DNA of 64,000 bases from Gordonibacter massiliensis (ex Traore et al. 2017). Lineage in GTDB: Bacteria; Actinomycetota; Coriobacteriia; Coriobacteriales; Eggerthellaceae. Under the pieces are notes generated by a model, which was not told the origin of the DNA, did no database searches, and saw nothing but the letters and a program-made list of their open reading frames with translations. Shown in pieces: positions 27,897 to 34,690 of this stretch. The DNA is taken from contig LT827128.1 of the NCBI GenBank assembly GCA_900170005.1, positions 1,178,001-1,242,000 on the forward strand, written 5' to 3'. The position numbers and the translations under genes are program-made. Each line of letters starts with the position of its first letter. Position 1 is the first letter of the stretch.

Positions 27897-28026
27897 CCGC
27901 ACCTCCTCGCCAACCATCATGCGCCCGCGCTCCCGCGCGGCTTCAAGGCCCATGATAGCCTATCGACCGCTTGCGGGCGGTCGCGAGCGTGCGACGGCGA
28001 GAAGCAAGGACGCCGGCAGCTCCGCC

Positions 28027-29391
28027 CTATCCCCCTATCGTCACCTCGCGTTTGAACCCGTAACGCAACACGAGGTAGTACCCGATGCCCGCCGCCATCC
28101 AGATGAGGCCGAGGACCTTCGCCGGCACGTCGAGGCTCCACCACGTGTAGCCGATCACCGCGATGCCGCATAAAGGCGACAGCAAATGCGCCGCCCAGCG
28201 CCCGTCGCGCTTCTTCACGAAGAAGTACCCGATGACCGTGACGTGCAGCATGAGGAAGGCCGTGAGCGCGCCGAAGTTCACGAACAGCGAGATGGTGTCG
28301 GTGCCCAGCCGCCCGAACGTCAGCACCAGCACGAGCGTGAGCGCGCCCACGAACAGCGACGCGACGTAGGGCGTGTGGTACTTCGGATGGATCCTCGCCA
28401 GCGGTTTCGGAAGCCCGCCCGCGCGCCCCATGGCGAAGAGTATCCGCGACACCGCCGTCTGCGCGGCCAGCGCCGTGAAGATGCCCCAGGCCAGCGCCGT
28501 GGCGACCGCGCACACGACGTACAGCCACCTGCCGCCCACGACTTGCGCCACGAGGTAGAAGGCGTTGCCCGAGTCGCCCGCGAACGCGGCGCCGTCGGGG
28601 CTGATGCAACCCGCGATGTAGGTCTGCAGTACGAACAGCGCGCCCACGATGGCCAGCGACGCCATCATGGCGCGCCCCGGGCCGCGGCGGCCGTCCTTCG
28701 CCTCCTCCGACAGCGTGGCGATGCCGTCGAAGCCCAGAAACGACAGCGCGCCCAGCGACACGGCGCTCATGACCAGGTTCGGATCGAACGTGGAGGGGTT
28801 GAAGAGGGGGTCGAGCGAGAAACCGCGCGATGCGGGATCGGCGAGCAGCCACCGGACGCCCAGCACGACGAAGACGAGCAGCACGAGGACCTCCAGCACG
28901 AGCGCCACGCGGTTCACGATGTCGGTGAGGCCGATGCCACGCACGTTCACGAACGTGTTCGCCACCACGAACACCACGGCGAACGCCCAAGGCGGGATCT
29001 CGGGCACGAGGCCGGACAACGCCGTGGAGGCCACCACGTACATGAGCACGGGGATCAGCAGGTAGTCGAGCAACAGCGTCCAGCCCGTCACGAAGCCGAT
29101 GCCCTTGCCCAGGCCGCGCGAGGTGTAGGCGTACACCGAGCCCGCCACCGGCCACTCGCGTATGAGCATGCTGTAGGACAACGCCGTGAACACCATGGCC
29201 AGCGTCCCCACGAGGTACACGAGCGCGGGCATGCCGCCCGACTCGGAGAACACGCCGCCGTAGATGCCCATCGGCGCGATGGGAACCATGAAGATGAGCC
29301 CGTACACGATCATGTCGGGCACGGTGAGCACGCGCTTGAGCTGACGGGTGTTTTCCGTGTTTCGATCGCTTCCAACCGCTGGCTGGCCCAT
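28027..29391 (-). CDS. APC-superfamily amino acid permease
   Basis: 454 residues with about 12 predicted membrane helices. The first-helix signature GLIFMVPIAPMGIYGGVF and the downstream SYSMLIREWPVAGSVYAYTSRGLG match APC/YjeH-like amino acid and polyamine transporters. GALSFLGFDGIATLSEEAKDGRR is the conserved helix 6 to loop segment. The substrate cannot be predicted. The start ATG (complement of 29389-29391) follows AAGGAGAGCGCGT. It is on the same strand as the GH3 gene, 130 bases upstream of it, and could be cotranscribed. The 158 bases at 29392-29549 hold no gene. Confidence 0.9.
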   Translation of the reverse strand: MGQPAVGSDRNTENTRQLKRVLTVPDMIVYGLIFMVPIAPMGIYGGVFSESGGMPALVYLVGTLAMVFTALSYSMLIREWPVAGSVYAYTSRGLGKGIGFVTGWTLLLDYLLIPVLMYVVASTALSGLVPEIPPWAFAVVFVVANTFVNVRGIGLTDIVNRVALVLEVLVLLVFVVLGVRWLLADPASRGFSLDPLFNPSTFDPNLVMSAVSLGALSFLGFDGIATLSEEAKDGRRGPGRAMMASLAIVGALFVLQTYIAGCISPDGAAFAGDSGNAFYLVAQVVGGRWLYVVCAVATALAWGIFTALAAQTAVSRILFAMGRAGGLPKPLARIHPKYHTPYVASLFVGALTLVLVLTFGRLGTDTISLFVNFGALTAFLMLHVTVIGYFFVKKRDGRWAAHLLSPLCGIAVIGYTWWSLDVPAKVLGLIWMAAGIGYYLVLRYGFKREVTIGG

Positions 29392-29549
29392 ACGCGCTCT
29401 CCTTGTCGGCGAATCCTGTCGTGCGCCCGTTTGGCGCACGCGGTTCACTTTACCGAGGGAGCGGAGCCGTAGGCGCTTCCCATCCCACCTGTTACCGCTG
29501 TGTGGGACAGCGGTTTCGTCGGCGAAGGCGCCGGGCGTTCAGGCCTTTC

Positions 29550-30947
29550 TCACCATCCCGAAAACGTCAGGAAGGCGAACACGAGCAAGCCCGCCGCCTC
29601 GAGGGACAGCACGATCGCGCCGTCCCGTCCGAGCGAGCGCCGCTTCAAACGGAACAGACGCCTGAGGGGCCTCCGATCGGAAACGAAGTAGAGCAGCGGA
29701 CCCGCCAAGAGGAAGGCGAGCGCCGCGTACGCCAGCGCACGGTACGCCAGGGTATGGCTCGCGACCTCCGAGCTCGGAAGCGGCCAGAACGTCGTGCCGA
29801 CGCAGCCGACGAGGACCACGGCGAACACCAAGGCGAGCAAGACGTCCCACGCGATGCCGACGCCGCGCGGTATGCAGGCGAGCAGGCCGCTCGCGAGCGA
29901 TCGGACGGTGCGGCGGAGCCTCGACGCGCCCGCCGATCCGCGGCGTCCGACGGCCTTCGAGTTCGCCGCAGCGGCCCTTGCGCTCGCGGTGCCCAACGAA
30001 GACGCCTGTGCGGACGACGGCCGCGCGCTAGGCTCCCGAACGATTGCGGGCGGCAAGGTCGTTCGAAGGGAGGCTTCCGGAACCGGCGCCGCAGCTGGAA
30101 CGCTCGCCCCGGCGGTCCGCAGCAGACCGGATCCCTCGGCATCCCGCATCTTCCGCACGGCCTCGTCGAACGCCCGATCCAACGCCCGCACGCTCGCGTA
30201 GCGGTCGGCAGGGTCGAACGCCGCCGCCCGCTCGATCACCGCGCGCAGCGGCTCGGGAACGCCTGCGGCGCGATAGCCCGCTCGACGCGCCTTCGCGTCC
30301 GGCGTCTTCTCCGTCAGGCAGAAGTACAGGATCATGCCCAAGGCGTACACGTCGGTGCGCACGTCGCTCTGTCCGTAGCCGAACTGCTCGGGCGGCGCGT
30401 AGGCGCGCGTTCCGAAGTGGTGCGTGTCCTCCTCTGCCGCCTCGTCGAACGAGCGGGCGATGCCGAAGTCGATGAGGGTGAGGTTGTCGCGCGTCAGCAT
30501 GACGTTGGAAGGTTTGAGGTCGCGGTGTATGAGCGGCGGATCGAACCCTTCGTGCAGCTCGAGCACGGCGTCGCAGAGTTTCGGGAAGACGTCGCAGGCA
30601 AGCTCGACGGACGGGTCGCAGCGGTACACGACGTCGGCCAGCGTCTCGCCCCTCACGTACTCCATAACCACGACGCGCCTCTCGCCCACCGTGTGGCAAT
30701 CGGCCACGAGGGGCAGATGAAGGAACCGCCGTCCCGAGCGCTGCGCGCGCCAGATGCACTCGTAGGCGGCGCCCAACCCCGCCTCGCCGTCCAGGTGCTT
30801 GCGCACGTACGGACCCTGCTCGGATCCGTTCGCCCCTACGAAGAACACGCGCTCCGTCGTCTCGAAGGGCCCTTCCTTCATGACGGAATCGACGCGGTAG
30901 CAGTCGTCGCGCGCGAGCGAATCGAGATGTTCGGAGAGTTCGTCCAT
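29550..30947 (-). CDS. Serine/threonine protein kinase with C-terminal membrane segment
   Basis: 465 residues. An N-terminal Hanks-type kinase domain (about 1-270) has a VRKH segment as the probable ATP-anchoring lysine, VVVMEYVRGETL, the catalytic loop HRDLKPSNVML, the metal motif DFGIA, and APPEQFGYGQSDVRTDVYALG. The Gly-rich loop is atypical. A Pro/Ala-rich linker (270-350) leads to three hydrophobic stretches near the C-terminus, so the kinase faces the cytoplasm from the membrane. The chosen start (complement of 30945-30947) lacks a clear ribosome-binding site. The gene lies 75 bases after an HTH protein gene, and the two share a 15-base sequence at their starts. Substrate unknown. Confidence 0.88.
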   Translation of the reverse strand: MDELSEHLDSLARDDCYRVDSVMKEGPFETTERVFFVGANGSEQGPYVRKHLDGEAGLGAAYECIWRAQRSGRRFLHLPLVADCHTVGERRVVVMEYVRGETLADVVYRCDPSVELACDVFPKLCDAVLELHEGFDPPLIHRDLKPSNVMLTRDNLTLIDFGIARSFDEAAEEDTHHFGTRAYAPPEQFGYGQSDVRTDVYALGMILYFCLTEKTPDAKARRAGYRAAGVPEPLRAVIERAAAFDPADRYASVRALDRAFDEAVRKMRDAEGSGLLRTAGASVPAAAPVPEASLRTTLPPAIVREPSARPSSAQASSLGTASARAAAANSKAVGRRGSAGASRLRRTVRSLASGLLACIPRGVGIAWDVLLALVFAVVLVGCVGTTFWPLPSSEVASHTLAYRALAYAALAFLLAGPLLYFVSDRRPLRRLFRLKRRSLGRDGAIVLSLEAAGLLVFAFLTFSGW

Positions 30948-30955
30948 GATGGGTA

Positions 30956-30970
30956 CATGGTAGCAGAACG
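30956..30970 (-). repeat. 15-bp direct repeat before the kinase gene
   Basis: CGTTCTGCTACCATG on the minus strand lies just upstream of the kinase start. The identical 15 bases sit at the start of the partner HTH gene (complement of 31478-31492). It may be a shared operator. Confidence 0.6.
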
Positions 30971-31021
30971 CCGAGCTCCCGCCCCTGTCGAACGGCACGT
31001 TCGCGCCCTTCGCCCGCAGCC

Positions 31022-31480
31022 TCAGCAGATCGTCTCCTCGCCGAAACGGTAGAGCTCCTCGTCGGTTCGCTGCAAGCCGTAACCGCGATCGAGGCAGAAG
31101 ATGATGATGGCGTCGCGTCGGTTCTTGCAGTACAGCTCGTTGGCGCCTGAAGCCTGCAACAGCCGATCGGCCTCTTTGAGCGAAAGGCCCATGGCGAAGG
31201 CGAGTTGCAGCACTTTGTTGCGCGAAGCGCCGCGCTGCCCCATGAATATCTGGTAGCCGAACGTGTCGTTGAGGCCGGCCTTGCGCACGACTTCGGCGCG
31301 CGTGAGCCCCTTCTCATCGAGCAGCTGCTGCAGGTATTCTGGAAGGTTGCGCTCTTTGATGCGGTGCTTGTCGGCGAACGTCTTCGGATCGGGGGCGTCC
31401 AACAGCTCCTGCAGCAGCTCGTCGGTCAAGGGCTCTTTCACGCGGCGCTTCCTTCTTCTTCGTTTCGTATCCGGTTTCAT
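31022..31480 (-). CDS. HTH (XRE-like) protein paired with the Ser/Thr kinase
   Basis: 152 residues. A very basic N-terminus (KRRRRKRRVK) precedes a helical region. A Cro/CI-like helix-turn-helix follows, around GLTRAEVVRKAGLNDTFGYQIF and RNKVLQLAFAMGLSLKEADRLL, and a C-terminal segment with ELYCKNRRDAIIIFCLDRG. The last part resembles the XRE proteins that accompany kinases in Actinomycetota and Bacillota gut bacteria. Its role is unknown. The start ATG (complement of 31478-31480) lies within the repeated CGTTCTGCTACCATG and has no Shine-Dalgarno sequence, so translation may be leaderless or the start may differ. It precedes the kinase by 75 bases on the same strand. Confidence 0.75.
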   Translation of the reverse strand: MKPDTKRRRRKRRVKEPLTDELLQELLDAPDPKTFADKHRIKERNLPEYLQQLLDEKGLTRAEVVRKAGLNDTFGYQIFMGQRGASRNKVLQLAFAMGLSLKEADRLLQASGANELYCKNRRDAIIIFCLDRGYGLQRTDEELYRFGEETIC

Positions 31481-31538
31481 GGTAGCAGAACGGCGGGAGG
31501 ACGGCCTTCGCGCCGCCTTCCCGCCGCGTCGGCCGCAC

Positions 31539-32039
31539 TTAAGCGACCGAGAACGTCTTTTCCGCGAGCATCTCGTCGCTCAGGCTGATGAGCCCCGTGC
31601 ATTCCACCGAGACGTCGGTCTGGTCGTCCAACAAGTAGGCCTGCTGGACGGTGGTGGTGGCTCCGGGCTTGATCTCGTTCATGGTGCTTTGAGCGTCGAT
31701 GTCGCTCACGACGGCCGTGTCGAGCTGCACCCCGTTCTGGAACGCCTTTGCCGAGACGGCCGTGAAGAAGGGCATCGCCTTGTCGGCGTTGTTGGTGAAC
31801 GTGTACGTGACCACGATGGCCGATTTGCCCGCGTAGTCCTGGGTGACGACGCAGTCGTCGATGGACACGGCGTACTTGGCTTCCTTCTTCTCGGGCTCCT
31901 GCTGGGCGGCCTGCTGCGGCGTCGAATCGCCCGCCTGGTCGCCCTCTTTCGCGTCCGACCCGCCCGACGAGCAGCCGAACAGCGCGACGCATGCGGCGAG
32001 CGCGCACGTCGCCGTCAGTGCTACGAGATGCTTCTTCAT
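31539..32039 (-). CDS. DUF5067-type lipoprotein
   Basis: 166 residues. The N-terminal signal has a lipobox (LFGCSS), predicting lipid attachment at the Cys and location outside the membrane. A low-complexity Ser/Glu/Gln linker (about 25-55) leads to a beta-rich domain with VVTYTFTNNADKAMPFFTAV and KPGATTTVQQAYLLDD, as in DUF5067/DUF4352-like immunoglobulin-fold proteins. The function is unknown. The start ATG (complement of 32037-32039) follows AAGGAGGAACT, but that site lies at the foot of a hairpin (32047-32076). It is close to the kinase-HTH pair, on the same strand and 58 bases upstream; DUF5067 lipoproteins may serve as sensory partners, which is speculative. Confidence 0.8.
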   Translation of the reverse strand: MKKHLVALTATCALAACVALFGCSSGGSDAKEGDQAGDSTPQQAAQQEPEKKEAKYAVSIDDCVVTQDYAGKSAIVVTYTFTNNADKAMPFFTAVSAKAFQNGVQLDTAVVSDIDAQSTMNEIKPGATTTVQQAYLLDDQTDVSVECTGLISLSDEMLAEKTFSVA

Positions 32040-32046
32040 AGTTCCT

Positions 32047-32076
32047 CCTTGTTTCGGTTTCGACCTCGAAACAAGG
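32047..32076 (-). promoter_or_regulatory. Leader hairpin overlapping the DUF5067 ribosome-binding site
   Basis: On the minus strand CCTTGTTTC pairs with GAAACAAGG, a 9-bp stem. The last AAGG is the first part of the AAGGAGG ribosome-binding site, so the fold could limit translation. Confidence 0.5.
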
Positions 32077-32101
32077 GTATCGAAACCGCTCGGCTAAAAC
32101 A

Positions 32102-32116
32102 TTAGCTGCCAGCTAA
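32102..32116. promoter_or_regulatory. 15-bp palindrome TTAGCTG-C-CAGCTAA
   Basis: A perfect 7+1+7 palindrome lies between the aldo/keto reductase terminator and the DUF5067 leader. It looks like a protein-binding site near the DUF5067 promoter. Confidence 0.45.
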
Positions 32117-32140
32117 GTTCTCGCAAGCGGAGTCGACGCC

Positions 32141-32180
32141 AAAAACCCTCGTGGCCGAGCGTTTCCGCTCGGCCACGAGG
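32141..32180 (-). terminator. Rho-independent terminator of the aldo/keto reductase gene
   Basis: On the minus strand CCTCGTGGCCGAGCG-GAAA-CGCTCGGCCACGAGG is followed by GTTTTT. A perfect 15-bp stem with a GNRA-type tetraloop and a U run lies 11 bases after the stop codon at 32191. It is the clearest terminator in the window. Confidence 0.93.
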
Positions 32181-32190
32181 CTGCCGCGCC

Positions 32191-33051
32191 TTAGAAGTCT
32201 ATGGTGTCGGGATCGAGGCCGCTTTGGCCCAGGGGATCCAGCTCGTCGATGCGTTGCAGGTCCTCGTCGGTGATGTTGAACCAGAACACGCGGGCGTTCT
32301 CGGCGATGCGGCCCGCGTTCGTCGACTTCGGCAAGGGGATGGCGCGCCGCTGCAGGCACCAGCGCACGCACAGCTGAGCCACCGTGCAGCCGTAGGAAGC
32401 GGCGATGTCGATGAGCAGCTGGTTCTCCAGCACGCGCCCCGAGCCGAGCGGCGACCACGCCTCCACCACGATGTCGTTGCGGTTGCAGAAGTCACGCGTG
32501 GCCTGCTGGTTGCAGCCGGGATGCAGCTCTATCTGGTTCACCATGGGAAGGATCTCGGCGGCGTCCATGAGGGGCTCCAGATGACGCGGCTTGAAGTTGC
32601 TCACGCCGATGGCGCGCACCTGGCCGTCGAGGTAGAGCGTTTCGAGGGCGCGCCACGTCTCCTGGTTCGTGCGCTGCCAATCCTCGTCGGAGCCCTGCGT
32701 TGCGGGCCAATGGATGAGGTAGAGGTCAACGTAGTCCAGATGCAGCTTCTTGCGCGACTCCTCGAACGCCTTGAGCGCGGGCTCGTAGCCGCGGTCGGTG
32801 TTCCACACCTTCGTGGTGACGAACAGCTCCTCGCGCGCGAGCCCCGACGTGGCCAGCGCCTTGCCTACCGTGGCCTCGTTATCGTAGAACGCCGCCGTGT
32901 CGATGTGGCGGTAGCCGTCCTCGAGCGCCTGGTGCACGGCGTCGATGCCCACCTCGCCGTCCGGCATCTTGTAGGTTCCGAAACCGACGCAGGGAATGCC
33001 GTAGCCGTTGCGCAGGGTAATCCGGTCTTGCTGGCTTTGCAGATCTGCCAT
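32191..33051 (-). CDS. Aldo/keto reductase
   Basis: 286 residues. A single (beta/alpha)8 NADPH-dependent reductase with the AKR signature GYRHIDTAAFYDNEATVG (catalytic Asp and Tyr), the active-site Lys in VTTKVWN, His in YLIHWPA, and the cofactor-binding end PLPKSTNAGRIAEN. It is close to bacterial AKR5-type 2,5-diketogluconate/methylglyoxal reductases. The substrate is not predictable. The start ATG (complement of 33049-33051) follows CGAGGAGGCATTC. It is monocistronic, with its own terminator, and divergent from the MFS transporter at 33440. Confidence 0.92.
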   Translation of the reverse strand: MADLQSQQDRITLRNGYGIPCVGFGTYKMPDGEVGIDAVHQALEDGYRHIDTAAFYDNEATVGKALATSGLAREELFVTTKVWNTDRGYEPALKAFEESRKKLHLDYVDLYLIHWPATQGSDEDWQRTNQETWRALETLYLDGQVRAIGVSNFKPRHLEPLMDAAEILPMVNQIELHPGCNQQATRDFCNRNDIVVEAWSPLGSGRVLENQLLIDIAASYGCTVAQLCVRWCLQRRAIPLPKSTNAGRIAENARVFWFNITDEDLQRIDELDPLGQSGLDPDTIDF

Positions 33052-33439
33052 GAATGCCTCCTCGTTCGCAGGCGGCGCCACCCCGAGCGCGCGGATCGCG
33101 TTTCGCCTTCGCTTTGTGTATGCGCACCACGATACCCGTTTGCCGGCGGCGCGTCCCCCGTGCTTCCAAATCGTCACGCGCCCGTAGGCGGGAGGTGCGG
33201 AAACGGAGCCGAGCGCTCCACCGATGCCTTAGCCGAGCGTCCCTTTCGTCGGTTCGCTTTGCGTTCGCCGCCGGAAACCGCAGGATCGCCCCAAGACCAA
33301 GCAATGGGCAAGCGGAAAGCACGTTTTACCTATACGATTTGCGCATAGAGATTGTTTCATTATAGGTATTGGCTATTGCTGCAGGGACGAGGTACGGTAG
33401 CGGAGGAAGAAGTCGCCCCTTGTCAGAAAGAACCCCGCC
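33052..33439. promoter_or_regulatory. Divergent control region, aldo/keto reductase and MFS transporter
   Basis: 388 bases without a gene. TACCTATA at 33327-33334 is repeated inverted as TATAGGTA at 33361-33368, 26 bases apart. Between and overlapping them, TTGCGC and TATAGG lie 16 bases apart, a possible plus-strand promoter for the MFS gene. The inverted octamers could therefore be operator half-sites. The rest is GC-rich with no clear signal for the leftward gene. Confidence 0.45.
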
Positions 33440-34690
33440 ATGCAAACCGTATCGAAAACCCGCCCATCCTTCGTCGCCGCGCTGCTCGTGGCCCTGGCGT
33501 TCGCGCTCGGGTTCGCCGAGTTCGTGCTCATCGGCATCACGCCGGACGTGGCCGAAGGGCTGGGAGAGCCCCTCACCCTCATCGGGGACATCGTGGGCTA
33601 CTACGCGCTCGCCTGCGCCGTGGCCACCCCGGTGGTGGCTCTCGCCACGGCGCGCGCCAACCGCTTCAAGCTCACGGCCGTGCTGCTCGTCGTGTTCAAT
33701 GCCGGCAACCTGCTCACCTTGTTCGCGGACGGCTACGCCCTGCTGCTCGTGTCGCGCCTGCTGCCGGCGGCCACGTCCGGCACGCTGCTGGCCATCGCCC
33801 TCACCTACGTGCCCGAGATCGTGGACGCGGGGAAGGTGGCGCGCGCGTTGTCGTTCGTGCTGGCCGGCTTCTCGGTGTCGAGCGTCATCGGCGTGCCCAT
33901 CGGCACCGCGCTCGCCGACGCCTTCGGTTGGAAGGCCGCCTACGCCTGCGTGCTCGCGCTGGGTCTGGTGGTGAGCGCGCTGCTGCTGCCAGCCCTTCCC
34001 CGCAAAGCGCGCGCAGTGCACGAGACGACAACGCTCCGCTCGCAGCTGCGGCTTCTGGGCGACAGGCGCGTGCTGGCCAACATCGCCATGATCCTGGCGG
34101 GCGCGGCGTCCACCTACGTGTTCTACACCTACCTCACGCCCGCCCTCGAGGACGTCATGGGCTTCGGCGGCGCCGCCGTGAGCGTCATCCTGCTCGGGCT
34201 GGGCGCGGCGTGCGTGGCGTCGAACCTGCTGTCGGGGTGGGTGGCGAACCGCTTCGGCATGCGCGCCCTGCCGCTGACCTTCGCCCTGCACGCCGGCCTC
34301 TTGGCGCTGTTGACCGTAACCGTGCCCCTGGGCGCCGCGGGCCTCGCCGACATCGCGTGCGTGTGCCTGCTCATGTACGTGATGAACTCCACCGTGCAGA
34401 TGCTGTTCCAAGACGTGGCGCGGCGCGACTACCCGAGCGCGCTCACGTTCTCCGCGTCGCTGCACCCCATGTCGTTCAACGCCGGCATCGCGCTCGGTTC
34501 GTTCGCGGGCGGCGTCGCGGTGAACGCGGGCGGCCTTCTGGCCACAGGCCCGATCGGCGCGCTGTTCGCCCTGGTCGCCGCCGTGCTTGCGCTCGTGCTC
34601 GTGCGCCTGACGGCGCGGCAGCGCGAGAAGTCGGCTGCCGTCGAGCGTCTGGGCAACAAGCTGGAAGACCGCTTCAAAGAGAGCGCGTAA
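33440..34690 (+). CDS. MFS transporter (sugar/drug efflux type)
   Basis: 416 residues with 12 hydrophobic segments. The opening LALGFAEFVLIGITPDVAEGL-like stretch (ALGFAEFVLIGITPDVAEGL) and YYALACAVATPVVALATAR match the AraJ/YdeA/NepI arabinose- and purine-efflux group of the major facilitator superfamily. The conserved loop GWKAAYACVLALG follows helix 5-6. The likely role is export of a sugar, nucleoside or drug. The start ATG follows AGAAAGAACCCCGCC, a weak site. It is divergent from an aldo/keto reductase, and the shared intergenic region carries an inverted repeat. After it comes dispersed element C. Confidence 0.88.
   Translation: MQTVSKTRPSFVAALLVALAFALGFAEFVLIGITPDVAEGLGEPLTLIGDIVGYYALACAVATPVVALATARANRFKLTAVLLVVFNAGNLLTLFADGYALLLVSRLLPAATSGTLLAIALTYVPEIVDAGKVARALSFVLAGFSVSSVIGVPIGTALADAFGWKAAYACVLALGLVVSALLLPALPRKARAVHETTTLRSQLRLLGDRRVLANIAMILAGAASTYVFYTYLTPALEDVMGFGGAAVSVILLGLGAACVASNLLSGWVANRFGMRALPLTFALHAGLLALLTVTVPLGAAGLADIACVCLLMYVMNSTVQMLFQDVARRDYPSALTFSASLHPMSFNAGIALGSFAGGVAVNAGGLLATGPIGALFALVAAVLALVLVRLTARQREKSAAVERLGNKLEDRFKESA

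Follow-up and report, generated by a model that had tools for sequence, protein, structure and literature searches.

The window analysed here is a 64,000-nucleotide stretch of the Gordonibacter massiliensis genome. This work deals with three neighbouring minus-strand genes in it, which encode a DUF5067 lipoprotein, a helix-turn-helix (HTH) protein of the XRE type and a membrane-tethered Ser/Thr kinase, and with the short DNA elements placed at their starts. A first-pass annotation of this DNA had drawn attention to a 15-letter sequence (15-mer) present at the starts of both the HTH and the kinase genes. Promoter-like elements, their spacing, reading frames, codon biases, conservation and co-occurrence were computed directly. 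The features of the locus are given below in the direction of transcription, P1, P2 and P3 denoting the predicted promoters:

32147..32180, minus strand: terminator-like hairpin after the upstream aldo/keto reductase gene (15-bp stem, then GTTTTT), which would insulate the cassette
32102..32116, minus strand: palindrome TTAGCTGGCAGCTAA, candidate operator of the HTH protein and sole genome match to TTAGCNNNNNGCTAA
32074..32079, minus strand: putative -10 hexamer of P1, TACCCT, 22 nt after the palindrome, with a degenerate -35 (ATGTTT) at 32097-32102
31539..32039, minus strand: DUF5067 lipoprotein gene, in the surface-protein slot (PF16729, 93.5 bits)
31490..31527, minus strand: strong hairpin between the DUF5067 and HTH genes, abutting P2 (whole 64-nt stretch -36.6 kcal/mol, z -3.2)
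31478..31492, minus strand: first 15-mer, putative extended -10 of P2 (TG 31486-31487, TACCAT 31479-31484); the ATG at 31478-31480 is the in-frame start of the long form
31022..31480, minus strand: HTH protein, predicted long form of 152 aa with a basic N-terminal tail (frame tests on 72 tail-bearing loci)
31450..31454, minus strand: putative Shine-Dalgarno (SD) sequence AAGGA within the Arg/Lys codons of the long form (AGG/AGA bias at codon -4)
31022..31441, minus strand: HTH protein, predicted short form of 139 aa from GTG 31441 (GTG or ATG at the aligned position)
30956..30970, minus strand: second 15-mer, putative extended -10 of P3, at the kinase gene (TG 30964-30965, TACCAT 30957-30962)
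29550..30947, minus strand: Ser/Thr kinase gene, 465 aa (PF00069, E 7e-23), with a leaderless-type start at ATG 30945-30947

The identities given to the three proteins in the first-pass annotation were confirmed. The PF00069 score of the kinase (81.7 bits, with a gathering threshold of 31.7) corresponds to a Hanks-type Ser/Thr kinase, and together with three C-terminal transmembrane-like segments (peaks at 365, 404 and 444) it supports a membrane-tethered enzyme. The motifs HRDLKPSN, DFG and APPE are present in the window kinase, and HRDxKxxN was found in 69 of the 71 locus kinases of at least 250 aa. The upstream protein exceeded the PF16729 gathering threshold of 27 bits by a wide margin, and a lipobox was recognized by eye. 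The AlphaFold2 model of the HTH protein (predicted local distance difference test score 86.1) showed an XRE fold with further C-terminal helices, and its Foldseek neighbours at probability 1.00 were C.AhdI, DdrO, ClgR, 434 Cro and lambda repressor.

Conservation was analysed in a set of HTH loci from which HTH hits below 90 bits, cores shorter than 200 nt and identical 200-nt cores had been removed; close relatives remain in it. The nearest named relatives of the window locus belong to Gordonibacter sp. 28C and G. pamelaeae. Of 106 loci, 98 have a kinase homologue 3' of the HTH gene in the same orientation. Of the 60 loci belonging to named genomes, 18 had an upstream DUF5067 match, the slot being occupied in other loci by other membrane or surface proteins. 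Five of these other upstream proteins were scanned, giving three DUF4190 proteins (one of which also has DUF4352 and a borderline DUF5067), one Ltp protein and one without a Pfam match; the remaining upstream open reading frames (ORFs), out of 70, were inspected by eye only, with several wrong-frame picks, that of the window included. Within the Actinomycetota the HTH profile matched 19 of 296 sampled genomes at 1e-8, all of them in the taxonomic order of the window, and an HTH match below 1e-20 was obtained in 100 of the 138 genomes of the family. This synteny, the DUF5067 matches and a homologous trio in Listeria innocua (see below) favour the earlier suggestion that the trio is a surface-to-regulator signalling unit.

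The palindrome TTAGCNNNNNGCTAA is single-copy in the genome and is located just 5' of the DUF5067 gene, 0.6 kb upstream of the HTH start. The upstream sequence is known over 1160 nt or more in 64 loci; within this distance the palindrome was found in 55 of them, whereas three control palindromes were found in none. In 13 loci it stands 64-156 nt 5' of the HTH start, and farther up in the others. A TANNNT hexamer starts exactly 22 nt after the palindrome at 60 of 71 sites, while other offsets up to 59 nt gave 0-3 sites each. The palindrome is directly followed by T and G at 68 and 67 of the 71 sites, respectively, and the resulting degenerate -35 reads ATGTTT (27 sites), ATGAAA (19) or ATGAAT (9). 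With the transcription start taken about 7 nt after the -10, the palindrome centre falls near -42; this fixed spacing fits the position of a class II activator relative to the predicted start. The composite TTAGCN5GCTAATGN20TANNNT was present in 82 of the 138 genomes of the family, namely in 80 of the 100 with an HTH match below 1e-20, in 2 of the 16 with a weaker match and in none of the 22 without a match. In the order it was found in 128 of 297 genomes, 127 of them among the 208 with an HTH E-value of 1e-20 or lower and one among the 89 without the HTH protein; this last genome (G004) carries a weak HTH match in the family search. The backwards control of the composite gave 0 in every genome in both searches. 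Hence, the palindrome, and not the 15-mer, appears the likelier operator of the HTH protein.

Two further observations were made on these elements. One palindrome apparently serves two divergent promoters in G041, G117 and G129, with a -10 located 22 nt away on either side. Composites away from the HTH gene, which might be further targets, occur at G003:C7:33828, G005:C1:1019304, G008:C29:10888 and G023:C76:109102.

The HTH gene had been described as starting at the 15-mer without an SD sequence. The lack of an SD sequence proved to be wrong, since AAGGA (31450-31454) stands 8 nt 5' of the in-frame GTG 31441. Two starts are predicted: ATG 31480, lying on the -10, would open the long form, whereas the SD-led GTG 31441 would open the short one. 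Of the 106 loci, 12 could not be aligned at the start and 8 carried a different codon at this point; both groups were excluded. In the 66 loci then compared, the codon matching residue 14 of the long ORF was GTG in 51 and ATG in 14, with no other Val codon and one misaligned row. As control, the Val64 codons were 31 GTC, 23 GTG, 6 GTT and 2 GTA. The residue before this inner start is Arg in 57 of the 66 loci, spread over five synonymous codons. In these 57 loci Arg was encoded by AGG or AGA in 49 of 50 cases at codon -4 and in 34 of 50 at codon -5, in comparison with 4 of 57 at codon -1 and 25 of 661 Arg codons elsewhere in the HTH gene. The GTG/ATG exchange and the AGR bias at SD distance are, as read from the codon pattern, the signature of a start codon accompanied by a ribosome-binding site.

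In order to analyse the basic tail, 72 loci were used in which Lys or Arg occupies four or more of the seven residues before the inner start, L068 being left out by hand; the frame tests on this set were not conditioned on an open frame. Stop codons in codons -12 to -8 were found 3 times in 360 in frame and 38 times in 720 in the other frames. An open ATG or GTG 8-16 codons upstream was present in frame in 69 of the 72 loci, and in 16 and 3 in the other frames; 46 of the 69 have an ATG 11-16 codons up and 23 another ATG or GTG 8-15 codons up. Against an expectation of one third, 37 of 45 TANNATG located 30-50 nt upstream were in frame, as were 54 of 68 ATG of any kind in this interval. In 33 of the 46 loci a G directly after a TANNAT hexamer completes the ATG, whose AT is the end of the hexamer. 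Nested starts thus appear to be present in the HTH gene, where the outer start is placed on the promoter of the inner one. A gene with the GTG start alone was also considered and was dropped because the basic tail looks translated. In most loci from Olsenella, Thermophilibacter and the Atopobiaceae the tail is missing, and the gene opens at the inner position or close to it. The longest ORF upstream of the tail-bearing loci is on the same strand in 54 of 69 cases, on the opposite strand in 13 and undetermined in 2, by a crude call.

Further HTH paralogues, with 44-46% identity to the window protein, were observed at L037:2244-2690, L050:4290-4718, G017:C14:20753 and G101:C1:2402910. They lie next to the first HTH gene in L037 and G101, 2.3 kb off in L050 and elsewhere in G017.

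The kinase gene was said to begin near the second 15-mer without an SD sequence. The latter was corroborated, none of the 91 loci with an identified start having an SD-like site. As for the start, ATG 30947 lies 9 nt after the -10 hexamer, whereas the ATG within the 15-mer belongs to another frame. TGNTANNNT ends 6-10 nt 5' of the kinase ATG in 78 of 98 loci (7 nt in 38, 6 in 19, 9 in 9, 10 in 7 and 8 in 5; range tested, 5-10 nt). The 9-nt gap in the window kinase makes a leader of about 2-3 nt likely, so the kinase mRNA is likely to be almost leaderless. This arrangement was compared with a 464-kb sample of the same genome, formed by 20 stretches plus the window and containing 373 called genes. 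An extended -10 located 5-10 nt from the start was found in 2 of the 373 genes, the kinase being one of them, and permuted controls gave 0-2. Bare TANNNT gave no leaderless peak in the sample (16 pairs at 5-10 nt vs 23 at 11-16). A frequent use of leaderless starts in this genome, considered at first, was discarded on the basis of this sample. The leaderless-type kinase start looks rare, an apparent exception in this genome that most of the examined relatives retain.

Leaderless-looking starts were also noticed elsewhere in this genome, at L120:4349 and at positions 896332 and 1042621; by sequence reading they belong to a gene for an MscS-like channel, an ORF with a small basic product and another of 392 aa. 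In seven loci (L019, L037, L038, L046, L047, L065 and L085) the last Cys codon of the HTH gene and its stop (TGC TAA) form part of the kinase extended -10.

The repeat reported in the first-pass annotation is real: CGTTCTGCTACCATG occurs at 30956-30970 and 31478-31492 on the minus strand, and these are its only two exact copies in the 3,948,172-bp genome. A 15-bp repeat is in itself not exceptional in the window, which contains 242 repeated 15-mers, compared with 32-65 in eight Markov simulations; nine 15-mers, from five separate repeats, occur in same-strand pairs at most 600 nt apart (0-3 15-mers in twenty simulations). By the annotation's own criterion, its reading would fall if the 15-mer were absent in close relatives with the same gene pair, and this is what was observed: two identical 15-mers were found at the window locus only, among 59 loci with both elements, and in the closest relatives the HTH and kinase elements agree at 13, 13 and 10 of 15 positions. 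CGTTCTGCTACCATG includes TG-C-TACCAT, an extended -10. A promoter scan requiring a -35 gave nothing between 28000 and 33500 and, hence, extended -10 elements were tested by position. TGnTAnnnT located 17-50 nt 5' of candidate starts gave 32 start/motif pairs in the 464-kb sample, where one gene may yield more than one pair, and four permuted controls over the same range gave 14, 6, 8 and 10. TACCAT was among the commonest hexamers of these sites (4 of 24 distinct sites, two being the 15-mers). TNTGNTACCAT has 13 genome sites, its backwards control 5. An ORF of at least 60 codons opens within 90 nt downstream of 11 of the 13, the 15-mers included (10 with ATG), a count that stands without a computed chance rate, and several other genes preceded by TNTGNTACCAT have an SD sequence further downstream. 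No Rfam matches were obtained in 28000-33600. The 15-mer is most likely an extended -10 promoter element (TG-N-TACCAT) used twice, and neither an operator nor a translation signal.

Taken together, these results point to a self-contained signalling cassette, composed of an XRE-type activator, a membrane kinase and an exchangeable surface protein and served by three promoters, a reading to which we assign a probability of about 0.7. P1, with the palindrome centred near -42, would drive the surface lipoprotein gene; P2, the first 15-mer, would drive the HTH regulator; and P3, the second 15-mer, would drive the membrane kinase from an almost leaderless mRNA. Transcription is expected to start near 32067, at ~31472 and at 30947-30950, respectively. 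The XRE-fold HTH regulator most likely binds the palindrome ATTAGCTGGCAGCTAAT and acts on P1 as a class II activator. The kinase, with a predicted cytoplasmic catalytic domain and C-terminal segments in the membrane, most likely senses the envelope, perhaps via the exchangeable surface protein, and most likely controls the HTH protein by phosphorylation. Transcripts from P2 would begin 3' of the long-form ATG, giving the short form alone from GTG 31441, and those reaching the gene from P1 by read-through would include this ATG, making the long form with its Lys/Arg tail also possible. We infer the transcription starts, the binding to the palindrome, the activation, the action of the kinase on the HTH protein and the making of both isoforms.

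A more ambitious and rather doubtful version of this proposal, offered tentatively, would make the cassette a kinase-controlled switch of lambda-like logic throughout the Coriobacteriales, with a one-site XRE activator, two N-terminal isoforms determined by the promoter used, a leaderless kinase mRNA and envelope sensing via the exchangeable surface protein. The short isoform would come from a promoter that overlaps the start codon of the long one, the long isoform would arise by read-through of its own activated promoter, and the kinase would be made from a leaderless mRNA in organisms whose starts are mostly of the SD type.

A number of observations weigh against the cassette model. No Foldseek E-value for the HTH protein was below 0.001, and its Pfam matches remained below gathering (HTH_31, 17.8 vs 27; HTH_19, 16.2 vs 30.2). 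Twenty of the 98 kinases are without the extended -10 element, seven of them because no start was found, and the kinase start was picked among in-frame candidates with preference for fitting ones, which is a favourable bias. The control codons Val65 (33 of 45) and Val90 (35 of 41) are also GTG-rich, only Val64 being clean, so the argument for the inner start rests mainly on the 14 ATG exchanges and the SD sequence. In three of the 72 tail-bearing loci the tested range contains no upstream start, and 8 of the 45 TANNATG are out of frame. The long-form ATG, lying on the -10 of P2, needs an upstream transcript, yet the strong hairpin intervenes; read-through from P1 across this hairpin is the weak link of the model. 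With the strict patterns used, the palindrome is absent in 9 of 64 loci and the composite in 81 of the 208 HTH-positive genomes. The bare palindrome is overall no commoner per genome than its backwards control, which places the signal in its position. Palindromes without a promoter occur elsewhere in several genomes; of the palindrome copies elsewhere in relatives, inspected by eye in 16 stretches, several looked like gene-end hairpins lacking the TG. Some composites lie far from the best HTH match or on another contig (for example in G462, G505 and G581), and the co-occurrence counts, being uncorrected for phylogeny, come from related genomes that are not independent.

The alternatives concern the role of the 15-mer, the site and sign of regulation, the number of HTH forms and the function of the trio. 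An operator role of the 15-mer for the HTH protein, exerted both at the HTH gene itself and at that of the kinase, as the first-pass annotation had envisaged, would account for the confinement of both exact genome copies to gene starts of this locus; it would also account for a conservation tighter than a bare extended -10 requires (T at -2 conserved at 99%; TACCAT in 48 of 78 kinase elements). We regard it as very improbable, given that the element shows no dyad symmetry (its N being C, G, A or T), that the conserved letters are those of a generic extended -10 found before other genes too, and that the HTH and kinase elements agree at 7.93 of 15 positions within genomes and at 7.85 between genomes (P=0.30, 59 loci). 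The identity of the two elements in this species is best explained by two copies of one promoter consensus that agree by chance at the free positions. The other function envisaged, a shared translation signal, draws on the ATG present within or just after the 15-mer in both genes and is extremely unlikely: the distance to the kinase ATG varies over 6-10 nt with no frame constraint, the letters fit a -10 and not a partner of the anti-SD sequence, the element precedes other genes as well, and the HTH gene has an SD-led GTG apparently under selection.

The palindrome might also be the site of another regulator. Its link with the HTH protein rests on co-occurrence, some composites lie away from the HTH gene, and short TTAGC...GCTAA dyads are known from other regulator families too. 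This explanation is unlikely, since the palindrome is single-copy in this genome and tracks the cassette, whether close to the HTH start or farther up, the composite is nearly missing from HTH-negative genomes (1 of 89), and the HTH protein is the sole predicted DNA-binding protein among the three. If the HTH protein is the ligand, it could repress P1 instead of activating it: XRE proteins are often repressors, and the palindrome adjoins the -35 region. The rigid 22-nt spacing, which contact with RNA polymerase near -42 would explain and a repressor would not need, and the degenerate -35 make repression somewhat unlikely. A single HTH form, with either the tail or the internal GTG being incidental, is favoured by the overlap of the upstream ATG with a -10, which leaves its transcript uncertain, by the frequent GTG at Val65 and Val90, and by the fact that both isoforms are sequence predictions. 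It is nonetheless improbable, because the tail is almost free of in-frame stops, its TANNATG are mostly in frame and Arg is kept before the start in five synonymous codons, whereas the GTG exchanges with ATG and with no other Val codon and the AGR codons are concentrated at SD distance. Finally, the trio had also been proposed as a defence-type module. The kinase does match many PADLOC PD-T4-6 models (best E 1e-37), but these generic matches are confined to the kinase domain common to such kinases; the HTH protein gave only a capH match at E 0.02, DUF5067 gave none, and the presence of an HTH match below 1e-20 in 100 of 138 family genomes, with conserved synteny, is unlike mobile defence genes. 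A phage-defence role is very unlikely.

The cassette model would provide a candidate dedicated regulator-operator pair with its input kinase, shared by a large set of gut bacteria in which few described circuits were found. The HTH gene would also be a clear comparative case of a ribosome-binding site apparently encoded within the coding sequence of a longer isoform; a promoter element overlying a start codon belongs to the same case. Since the candidate operator is single-copy and rigidly placed, the model is open to a simple experimental test. No publications on the cassette or its palindrome were found in a literature search that misses most subscription journals; the parts are familiar, and their combination, the -42 site and the start-site architecture appear undescribed in the literature searched.

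Class II activators of XRE fold with a -42 geometry include the lambda repressor at OR2/PRM and the C proteins of restriction-modification systems. The cassette HTH protein shares with them the fold and a candidate operator centred near -42 of the predicted start, and differs by its further C-terminal helices, its Lys/Arg tail and the partner kinase gene. Ser/Thr kinases paired with regulators are represented by PknH-EmbR and AfsK-AfsR, whose regulators are of the OmpR/SARP type. As in these pairs, a Ser/Thr kinase would be linked to a DNA-binding protein, the functional link being a prediction here, but the cassette regulator is of the XRE type, there is a third, exchangeable surface gene, and the kinase falls below the PASTA-kinase cut-off. 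Like the PASTA kinases PrkC and PknB, it is a Hanks-type enzyme with membrane segments; however, it has three C-terminal transmembrane-like segments and scored 109 bits against NF033483, short of the curated cut-off of 450.

Leaderless genes with TANNNT at the start amount to ~19% on average in Actinobacteria, according to one survey (PMC3160421). The cassette kinase resembles them in having a -10 hexamer a few nt before the ATG and no SD sequence, but the arrangement is rare in this genome (2 of 373 genes by extended -10) by comparison with the ~19% stated there. The Coriobacteriia are listed with SD and anti-SD sequences in another source (PMC10783764).

Adjacent homologues of the three genes occur in Listeria innocua (NZ_CP095725.1, QMF10_RS02075-02085), with 46% identity for the HTH protein, 34% for the kinase and 39% for the DUF5067 protein. 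The kinase of this trio may be the Lmo0618 kinase mentioned in two Listeria papers, a guess made from its length. No palindrome was seen by eye in the 105-nt intergenic stretch of the trio. The HTH gene is divergent from the kinase-DUF5067 genes, and the annotated HTH protein lacks the basic tail. This different order suggests that the link among the three genes is independent of operon shape.

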